Assembly: GCA_021847575.1 (NCBI GenBank) | Contig: JAJZQO010000008.1 | Coordinates: 1 to 60,277 of the forward strand | DNA from: Bacillota bacterium | GTDB lineage: Bacteria; Bacillota; Sulfobacillia; JAJZYS01; JAJYTV01 | DNA: 60,277 nucleotides | Direction: 5' to 3' | In this document: one piece after another, positions 57,359 to 60,277 of the stretch | Layout: the number at the start of each line of letters is the position of its first letter | Position numbering within the stretch: the first letter of the stretch is position 1 | Notes under the pieces: model-generated | Database searches by the model: none | Told to the model about the DNA's origin: nothing | The model's input: the letters and a program-made list of their open reading frames with translations, nothing else | Program-made: the position numbers and the translations under genes

Positions 57359-58604
57359 GGTGAAGGTCTATCTCAGGGCGGGGGACGGGGGCGCAGGCGC
57401 GCTCTCGTTCCGCCGCGAGAAGTATGTGCCGCACGGCGGTCCGGACGGCGGCGACGGCGGCCGCGGCGGCGACGTCATCGTGCGCGTGGCGCCGGGCGAG
57501 ACGACACTCAGCTCGTATCGCGGCCGCCGCCACTACAAAGCCGCGTCCGGCGGCGGCGGTGCGGGAGCCAACCGGCATGGCAGGGACGGCGAGGACGTTG
57601 TGCTCGATGTGCCGCCGGGGACGGTGGTGCGCAGGGAGGACGGCAGTGTCGTCCGCGACCTGCGCGAGGCTGGCGAGACGGTGATCGCGGCGCGCGGCGG
57701 CAGGGGCGGCCGCGGCAACGCGCGCTTCGCCACGGCCCGCGATCGCGCGCCGCGGCTGGCCGAGCGCGGCGAGCCGGGCGAGGAAGGCTGGTTCGTCCTC
57801 GAACTGCGCCTCGTGGCGGACATCGGCCTGCTCGGACTGCCCAACGCCGGCAAGTCGACATTGCTCTCGCGCCTCACCAACGCGCGTCCGAAGGTCGGCG
57901 ACTACCCCTTCACCACCCTAACACCGGAACTCGGCATCCTCGAGCGGGACGGCAAGGGGCTCGTGCTCGCCGACCTGCCGGGGCTGATCGAGGGGGCGCA
58001 CAAGGGGAGAGGCCTCGGCGACGTCTTCCTGCGCCACGCGAGCCGCTGCCGCGCCTTCGTGCACGTGCTCGACGCGAGCGGTGACGAAGCCTTGAAGAAC
58101 TTCCTCGACGTGCGCGAGGAAGTTCGCCTCTACGATCCGGAGCTCGCGGAGCGTCCCTACATCGTCGCCTGCAACAAGCTGGACCTGCCCGACGCGCGCG
58201 AAGCGATGGTTGAGCTGCGGCCGCGGCTCGAAGCCTACGGCCTGCAGGTCTACGCCATTTCCGCCGCGGGTGGCGAGGGGCTTGGCGAGCTCGCCGACGC
58301 CGTCTGGCGTCTCGCGGCGCAGGCGCCGCAGCAGGAGCCGCTGCCTGCGGAGACGAAGGAGCGCCAAGATCCGACTGCGTTCCGCGTCGTCGCGGAGGGC
58401 GATGGCTTCAGAGTTGAGGGAGTCACGGTCGAGCGGCGCGTCGCGATGACCGACCTCGACAACGACCGCGCCGTGCGCAGCCTGCAGCGCTATCTGAAGC
58501 GCAAGGGCGTCGAGGCCGAGCTGAAGCGCGCCGGAGCCCGCACGGGACAGAGCGTGCACATCCGCGAGCACGAATTCGAGTTCGTCGAGGGTGATGACGA
58601 GTAA
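57345..58604 (+). CDS. obg: Obg-family GTPase
   Basis: The 419-residue GTPase has the N-terminal glycine-rich Obg fold (DEVKVYLRAGDGGAGALSFR), G1 GLPNAGKSTLLS (about 164-175), G3 DLPGLIEGAHKGRG, G4 NKLDL and the C-terminal OCT domain (FRVVAEGDGFRVEGVTVER). It functions in 50S assembly and stress or sporulation entry. ATG 57345 overlaps the end of the Spo0B-like gene by 14 bp. Confidence 0.97.
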   Translation: MFVDEVKVYLRAGDGGAGALSFRREKYVPHGGPDGGDGGRGGDVIVRVAPGETTLSSYRGRRHYKAASGGGGAGANRHGRDGEDVVLDVPPGTVVRREDGSVVRDLREAGETVIAARGGRGGRGNARFATARDRAPRLAERGEPGEEGWFVLELRLVADIGLLGLPNAGKSTLLSRLTNARPKVGDYPFTTLTPELGILERDGKGLVLADLPGLIEGAHKGRGLGDVFLRHASRCRAFVHVLDASGDEALKNFLDVREEVRLYDPELAERPYIVACNKLDLPDAREAMVELRPRLEAYGLQVYAISAAGGEGLGELADAVWRLAAQAPQQEPLPAETKERQDPTAFRVVAEGDGFRVEGVTVERRVAMTDLDNDRAVRSLQRYLKRKGVEAELKRAGARTGQSVHIREHEFEFVEGDDE

Positions 58605-58651
58605 CGCGAGAGAAGACGCCCGCGACCCCGCGGGCGGAGGGCCGCAGGGCC

Positions 58652-59302
58652 ATAGGCGTCATGGGCGGCACCTTCGATCCGATCCATTTCGGACACCTGG
58701 TGACGGCCGAGGCTTCACGTGCGGCGTTCGGGCTGGAGGACGTCGTCTTCATTCCCTCGGGTAACCCGCCGCACAAGCTTGAGCGTTCGGTCTCGACGGC
58801 CGAGCACCGCTATCTCATGACGGTGCTCGCTACCTCGACGAACCCCTATTTCCGCGTCTCCCGCGCCGAGATCGACCGCGTCGGACCATCCTACACCGTG
58901 GACACGATCGAGGGGTTGCGCCGCGGCCTGGGTCCCGACACACTGATCTACTTCATCACGGGCGCGGACGCTGTCATGGAGCTCATGACATGGAACCGTC
59001 CCCAGGACATCCTGGTGCAGTGCGAATTGATCGCCGCGACGCGCCCCGGCTACCCGCCCGCCGACATCCAACGGCTGCGGCAGGTCATCCCGCAGGTGTC
59101 CGCAGCGCGCGTGCACACGATCGAAGTGCCCGCGCTGGCCATCTCGTCGAGCGACATCCGGCGGCGCGTGGAAAGCGGCGAGCCGATCAAGTACCTGGTG
59201 CCCGAGACGGTCGAGCAGTACATCCTGAAGAGCGGTCTCTATGTGCGGGCGCACACAGCCGGTGGCAAGGGCCGCGGCCGGCTCGCGGAGATGTGGCTCT
59301 AG
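58652..59302 (+). CDS. nadD: Nicotinate-nucleotide adenylyltransferase
   Basis: The NadD enzyme makes deamido-NAD. It has GGTFDPIHFGHL (nucleotidyltransferase HxGH), VVFIPSGNPPHK, the YTVDTIEGLR block and the ISSSDIRRRV signature near the end. The first strand of the fold (RRAIGVMGG) requires the start before GVMGG. There is no ATG, GTG or TTG upstream of ATG 58661, which is 20 nt from GGAGG. ATA 58652 is 11 nt from it and restores the strand. ATG 58661 (213 residues) is the conservative alternative. Confidence 0.85.
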   Translation: MGVMGGTFDPIHFGHLVTAEASRAAFGLEDVVFIPSGNPPHKLERSVSTAEHRYLMTVLATSTNPYFRVSRAEIDRVGPSYTVDTIEGLRRGLGPDTLIYFITGADAVMELMTWNRPQDILVQCELIAATRPGYPPADIQRLRQVIPQVSAARVHTIEVPALAISSSDIRRRVESGEPIKYLVPETVEQYILKSGLYVRAHTAGGKGRGRLAEMWL

Positions 59303-59328: not shown

Positions 59329-59880
59329 GTGGCGGAGATCGACTGGCTGGAGAAGATGCAGTCCACTTTGACGCCGGCGCGCGTCGCCCACAGCCTCGGC
59401 GTGGCCGAAACAGCCGCAGAGCTGGCCGCCCACTATGACGAGGAGCCCAAAAAGGCGCACCTTGCCGGCATCGTCCACGATCTGGCACGCGAGATGCGGC
59501 CTGCGGACATGCTTGCCGAGGCTTTGATGCGCAAACTGCCGATGGAGAGGATCGAACGTCAGGCGCCGGTGCTCCTGCACGGCCCGATCGAGGCGTCGCG
59601 CCTCGCGGAGGATGGGTTGCACGACCCGGACATCCTGCAGGCGGTCCGCCTGCACACGACAGGTGCCCCCGGCATGGGTCGCCTGGCCCAGATCATCTTC
59701 CTCGCCGACGCGATCGAGCCGACGCGCGAGTACCCTGGAGTGGAGGAACTGCGCAGGATCGCGAAGGACGGCCTCAGGGTGGCCGTTGGCGAATGTCTCA
59801 GGATGCAGCTTGTCCACCTGGCCTCGCAGGGCCATCTCATCCATCCGCGCGCCGTGGCGACCTACAACAGCTTCATCTGA
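59329..59880 (+). CDS. yqeK: HD-domain Ap4A hydrolase YqeK
   Basis: The 183-residue protein has the YqeK HD pattern: RVAHSLGVAETAAELA, HLAGIVHDLAREM (HD), LLHGPIEASR, LHTTGAPGMGRLAQI and DAIEPTREYPGVEELR. YqeK proteins hydrolyse diadenosine tetraphosphate symmetrically. GTG 59329 follows GAGGGGGGGA. nadD-yqeK-rsfS is the standard order. Confidence 0.92.
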   Translation: MAEIDWLEKMQSTLTPARVAHSLGVAETAAELAAHYDEEPKKAHLAGIVHDLAREMRPADMLAEALMRKLPMERIERQAPVLLHGPIEASRLAEDGLHDPDILQAVRLHTTGAPGMGRLAQIIFLADAIEPTREYPGVEELRRIAKDGLRVAVGECLRMQLVHLASQGHLIHPRAVATYNSFI

Positions 59881-59900
59881 TCCCAAGGGGGGACGGCGCC

Positions 59901-60239
59901 ATCGAGAGAGAGGACAGTCTGAGGCGCGCCCGGCTCGCTGCGGAAGCCTGCCGGGAGCGCAAGTGCCCCTACGTCGTCGTTCTGGACGTGCGCGGGCATA
60001 CGCCGTTCGTGGACTATTTCGTCATCTGCACGACGCAGAACCGCGTGCAGTCCGAAGCGGTCGTGGATGCCCTCGAGGAGAAGCTCGGCAGCTACCACCA
60101 CCGCGAGGGGCGCGAGGGTGCAGATTGGGTTCTGGCGGACTTCCGGGACATCGCGGTGCACGTCATGCTGCCGGAAGCGCACCGCTTCTACGATCTCGAG
60201 CGCCTCTGGGGCGATGCCCCGCGCCTCGCCGAAGTATAG
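59901..60239 (+). CDS. rsfS: Ribosomal silencing factor RsfS with a probable ATC start
   Basis: The 112-residue protein blocks subunit joining by binding L14. The family pattern is clear (RARLAAEACRERKCPYVVVL; FVDYFVICTTQNRVQSEAVV; DWVLADFRDIAVHVMLPEA). No ATG, GTG or TTG occurs in frame between the yqeK overlap and the first helix. AAGGGGGGA lies 7 nt before ATC 59901, and this gives a family-typical length. CTG 59877 (overlapping the yqeK stop) is an alternative without a ribosome binding site. Confidence 0.85.
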   Translation: MEREDSLRRARLAAEACRERKCPYVVVLDVRGHTPFVDYFVICTTQNRVQSEAVVDALEEKLGSYHHREGREGADWVLADFRDIAVHVMLPEAHRFYDLERLWGDAPRLAEV

Positions 60240-60250
60240 ACGACGCGAGC

Positions 60251-60277
60251 CCCTACCCGCCTTCATGGCGGGCAGGG
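60251..60277 (+). terminator. Hairpin at the window edge
   Basis: An 11-bp stem with one mismatch (60251-60261 with 60267-60277) starts 11 nt after rsfS and runs to the window edge; the U-tract, if any, is outside. Confidence 0.4.

Follow-up and report, generated by a model that had tools for sequence, protein, structure and literature searches.

Initiation factor IF3 represses translation from non-canonical start codons, and its own gene, infC, controls itself in this manner, starting at AUU in Escherichia coli, ATC in Streptomyces and AUA in Staphylococcus aureus, as far as the available parts of these reports go (PMC5472188, PMC13009471). The same repression holds down sigR in Streptomyces, according to the accessible portion of the first report (PMC5472188). 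In S. aureus, non-canonical starts behind an extended Shine-Dalgarno (SD) sequence were found, in poor medium, to give about 10% of the output of an AUG start; in the available part of that report, a role of IF3 at one such gene, ccpN (AUA), is only supposed (PMC13009471).

Here we analyze the start of rsfS, the gene for the ribosomal silencing factor RsfS, which lies at the end of a window of 60,277 nucleotides (the whole stretch of DNA that was analyzed) from a bacterium of the class Sulfobacillia, and which an earlier sequence-only reading had suggested might initiate at ATC. RsfS binds the ribosomal protein uL14 and blocks subunit joining, keeping the two halves of the ribosome apart. A close likeness is to infC: both are translation-factor genes with a conserved AUH start behind a strong SD, and in the family to which the window belongs infC itself starts at ATC. 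The difference is that rsfS is not the gene of the discriminating factor, so that control of rsfS by IF3, if it operates, would involve no direct self-feedback. Like sigR, rsfS would be a gene for a protein other than IF3 whose expression is held down by a start outside ATG, GTG and TTG, but the codon is GTC in S. coelicolor sigR and ATC in rsfS and, as described in the available text, repression by IF3 has been demonstrated experimentally only for sigR (PMC5472188). The S. aureus genes ccpN (AUA), cvfC1 (AUU) and citZ (AUA) likewise combine a non-canonical start with a strong SD, conserved across related species in ccpN and cvfC1; these are different genes with different codons, and the starts there were located by ribosome profiling, whereas that of rsfS was located by sequence comparison (PMC13009471, available part). 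In E. coli the same gene, rsfS, has a weak start, UUG (PMC10917681, available part), but UUG is among the three standard starts and the AUC of the family is not. No description of a non-standard start for rsfS turned up in a literature search of a partial library. Judging by these likenesses, rsfS probably joins the known class of weak, IF3-repressed starts represented by infC, sigR and ccpN.

The rsfS start in the window and its family

Translation from window position 59901 yields a full RsfS, which in profile searches covers the whole domain of both TIGR00090 (85.5 bits against a cut-off of 56.9) and PF02410 (89.1 bits against a cut-off of 21.6). The homology begins directly at the ATC at 59901, 7 nt downstream of the SD motif AAGGGGGGA, as the sequence-only reading had noticed (Table 1). 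Its further claim that no standard start is available nearby also holds: the rsfS open frame spans 59439-60239 and contains a single upstream ATG, GTG or TTG, the ATG at 59793, 36 codons before the ATC, and the next such codon downstream, the GTG at 59988, lies 29 codons on, within the conserved domain. By codon usage, a run of 28 codons free of a standard start has a chance probability of 0.16.

Table 1. Features of the rsfS region and of other genes with near-cognate starts. Plain coordinates refer to the window; the others give genome, contig and position.
Feature	Position	Strand	Remarks
nadD ATA, at the place of ATC in other g1 genomes	58652..58654	+	possible near-cognate start; uncertain, ATG 58661 three codons later
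yqeK-like gene upstream of rsfS	59329..59880	+	likely GTG start; stop 20 nt before rsfS ATC
ATG, lone standard codon upstream in the rsfS frame; discounted as start	59793..59795	+	within yqeK; missing at that place from 9/10 genomes
SD of rsfS, AAGGGGGGA	59885..59893	+	GGGGAGG in G001-G005; GGAGG/GAGGGGG in genus g2
rsfS start codon ATC	59901..59903	+	10/10 family genomes; 8/10 without ATG/GTG/TTG from in-frame stop to ATC
rsfS CDS, ribosomal silencing factor	59901..60239	+	112 codons and stop; TIGR00090 and PF02410 above cut-off; RsfS relatives in PDB
ABC exporter, ATC start	G000:C11:2088-3848	-	ATC 7/7; in G001, G003 a TAG three codons upstream of ATC
Carbon-nitrogen hydrolase, CTG start	G000:C11:42245-43111	+	CTG 6/6; TGA just before SD in G002, G005
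LysR regulator, CTG start	G000:C9:1085-1981	-	CTG in six g1 genomes; ATG at same codon in G006
typA, CTG start	G000:C43:10386-12254	+	CTG 7/7

RsfS was detected in 59 of the 61 genomes searched, and ten of these, including that of the window (G000), make up the window's family, with six members in genus g1 and four in g2. Throughout both genera, ATC stands at the rsfS start behind a strong SD, and it is the only invariant run of three bases across the 57 aligned nucleotides around the start in the ten genomes, two of which (G003 and G004) are identical over this stretch. This invariance is weaker than it appears, given that ATC accounts for 93% of the isoleucine codons here and its third base alone is weak evidence. 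The evidence for the ATC is nevertheless strong because of the stop codons: in eight genomes no standard codon occurs between the in-frame upstream stop and the ATC, and in four the stop is only 8 codons upstream. The two exceptions are the window's genome and G007, which has two standard codons, 24 and 25 codons up. Downstream, the first 24 codons are free of standard starts in all ten genomes, and the first one follows at +24 to +30.

These stops bear directly on the reading, which the sequence-only note had named as one way to be wrong, that translation begins at an upstream standard codon. Initiation at the ATG at 59793 would give RsfS an N-terminal extension of 36 residues overlapping yqeK, and has in its favor that this is the lone in-frame upstream standard codon in the window; the stops in relatives, however, rule it out as the start of the family, and solved RsfS chains in the PDB as well as homologs from the class begin near the position of the ATC, so that we regard such an extended protein as highly improbable. 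A start slightly downstream, at the CTG at 59919, would give a protein of a length that fits Bacillus RsfS. It is preceded, at a plausible spacing in the window, by GAGAGG, and a genome of the same order, G010, probably has a CTG start for rsfS; yet in the rest of genus g1 this codon reads GCC, GCG, ACG or GCA, and the spacing at which the strong SD is conserved suits the ATC, not the CTG, which makes initiation at this CTG very unlikely.

The upstream gene, which we take to be yqeK, ends 13-21 nt before the rsfS ATC in all ten family genomes. In four of them its stop, a TGA, is in frame with rsfS, as would suit synthesis of RsfS as a YqeK-RsfS fusion through stop-codon read-through or frameshifting. 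Because the stop is in frame in these four genomes and out of frame in the other six, a read-through product is excluded as a general rule; the gaps also differ and one stop is TAG, so that the fusion seems extremely improbable. Virtually no weight is left for an assembly error hiding an ATG or GTG, the other refutation that the sequence-only reading had foreseen: the site does lie in a draft assembly, close to the end of the contig and next to six consecutive G, but the identical ATC is present in ten separate genomes, and the relatives rule such an error out. The place of the rsfS start, its conservation and the lack of a standard start in relatives are established by this comparison of genomes, on which rsfS appears to initiate at ATC; the alternatives of a sequencing error, a standard start further upstream, read-through out of yqeK and initiation at the CTG at 59919 are either excluded or very unlikely.

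Apart from the question of the start, the end of another contig of the same assembly (G000:C33:36058-36165, minus strand) encodes RsfS residues 77-112 identically to window 60129-60277; the two contigs probably overlap, with C33 continuing the window downstream.

Other near-cognate starts and the initiation machinery

The suggestion of the sequence-only reading that near-cognate starts recur in this lineage is supported for the family. The infC gene starts at ATC in all eight family genomes with a match (G003 and G009 gave none), with GGAGGTGA just before the ATC and a TTG four codons later that is too far from the SD. Four further genes, encoding an ABC exporter, a carbon-nitrogen hydrolase, a LysR regulator and TypA, show the near-cognate starts listed in Table 1, in a comparison of seven family genomes out of ten (no hydrolase match in G004). 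In the exporter (G001, G003) and the hydrolase (G002, G005), a stop codon closely precedes the SD or falls within it. A transporter gene (G000:C11:4777) that has GTG at its start in G000 has CTG there in G002.

For nadD (window 58598-59302), which the sequence-only reading had counted among such cases, the only standard start in the five g1 genomes read is an ATG that immediately precedes the sequence GGTFDP, and ATC (ATA in G000) stands three codons before that ATG; in the two g2 genomes read, another ATG lies nine codons upstream of the one at GGTFDP. On this alignment, a near-cognate nadD start in genus g1 is probable, if uncertain. The CTG cases that it invoked were not found in the window: among the alignments listed in the screen of window genes, no real case other than rsfS was flagged. 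Because gene callers usually weigh only ATG, GTG and TTG, genes with near-cognate starts are liable to be mis-started or lost.

As a cause, the sequence-only reading had proposed relaxed start-codon selection through a divergent IF3, to be checked in infC and the rRNA. The machinery looks ordinary and gives the proposal no support: nearly the whole of IF3 can be aligned with solved IF3 structures (best score 214.9 bits), and its score against TIGR00168 is 238.8 bits; the CAT anticodon and the GGG/CCC stem of the initiator tRNA are retained, and the 16S rRNA ends in GGATCACCTCCTTTCT in both genomes with a 16S match. A search for an altered IF3, initiator tRNA or anti-SD found none.

The genome-wide count of near-cognate starts behind strong SD sequences that the same reading had called for was approached in two ways. 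A pairwise screen of G000 against G002 tested 158 genes, and that of a control pair, G036 and G055, tested 110. In the family pair 16 genes were flagged, five of which proved real on reading (rsfS, the ABC exporter, the hydrolase, the LysR regulator and typA); the others were four standard starts, two ambiguous cases (C37:45388 and C129:23093) and five short or antisense open reading frames. The control pair yielded six flagged genes, all read as standard or antisense, including a valS-like gene whose ATG was seen in only one of the two genomes. The resulting 5/158 against 0/110 (one-sided p = 0.069) is only suggestive of a genome-wide excess of near-cognate starts over the control pair. A second, SD-anchored screen, in which about half of the genes remained unassigned, came out negative: in the family, mock codons turned up as often as near-cognate ones (4 each), and the control had 1 near-cognate and 2 mock codons.

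These counts are relevant to the view that the lineage has generally relaxed start-codon selection and that its ATC and CTG starts reflect neutral drift devoid of regulatory meaning. The six genes with conserved near-cognate starts, the result of the pairwise screen and the GTG/CTG difference at the transporter start all speak for such relaxation; the normal-looking IF3, initiator tRNA and anti-SD, the marginal p value, the SD-anchored screen that did no better with near-cognate than with mock codons, and the retention of every near-cognate codon through the genus speak against it. We consider general relaxation possible but doubtful.

Possible control by IF3 and rsfS starts beyond the family

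The reading that we favor, and consider quite probable, is that the ordinary initiator tRNA starts rsfS translation at AUC 59901 and that the AUC lowers initiation, makes it sensitive to IF3 and keeps RsfS scarce. In this scheme the strong SD 7 nt upstream would place the initiator tRNA on the AUC, and ribosomes finishing yqeK 20 nt earlier may help rsfS initiation. By analogy with the described systems, we infer that the AUC is weak and under IF3 control, in which case RsfS would be scarce and its level would track the ratio of IF3 to ribosomes. As AUC is the infC start in the family too, the two anti-association factors would be expected to respond together. An AUC start conserved on the gene of a ribosome-silencing factor offers a directly testable link from the level of IF3 to the control of subunit joining. 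Together with typA and the genes of the ABC exporter, the hydrolase and the LysR regulator, rsfS extends the short list of well-supported cases.

In a broader survey, the best 80 of 585 rsfS loci in the genome_contigs collection were examined, and four of these 80 (L238, L245, L265 and L280) lack any standard codon (ATG, GTG or TTG) from the in-frame stop up to the conserved region. They come from metagenome-assembled genomes (MAGs) of Terriglobia, Syntrophus, Nitrospinota and Caldisericota, single MAGs that may hold errors, and have CTG, ATT or ATA behind a purine-rich stretch. The yardstick genes always had a standard start (nadD in 41 of 41 unmasked rows, after two with N were dropped, and obg in 15 of 15), and the difference between 4/80 for rsfS and 0/56 for nadD and obg together is not significant (p = 0.116). 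A much bolder proposal would make rsfS a second infC that has repeatedly been fitted with an IF3-sensitive start, the Syntrophus, Nitrospinota, Caldisericota and Terriglobia genes being independent cases, and would unite infC (AUC), rsfS (AUC) and typA (CUG) in a translational regulon in which the ratio of IF3 to ribosomes would set how much of the factors of ribosome association and assembly is supplied, independently of any transcription factor; this we think unlikely.

Within the class, rsfS loci were compared for 20 of the 49 genomes with a match outside the family. Among these loci, the start with the best SD support is TTG in 14, CTG in two and ATG in one, and three have none; G010, of the same order as the window, has CTG where most others have TTG. 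Given these TTG starts and the UUG of E. coli rsfS, the gene tends toward weak starts, with the window's family having the weakest.

The infC gene also varies elsewhere in the class, starting at ATC in G010 and G011, at CTG in G012-G014 and apparently at ATA in G015 (loci L045, L042, L034, L033, L035 and L047).
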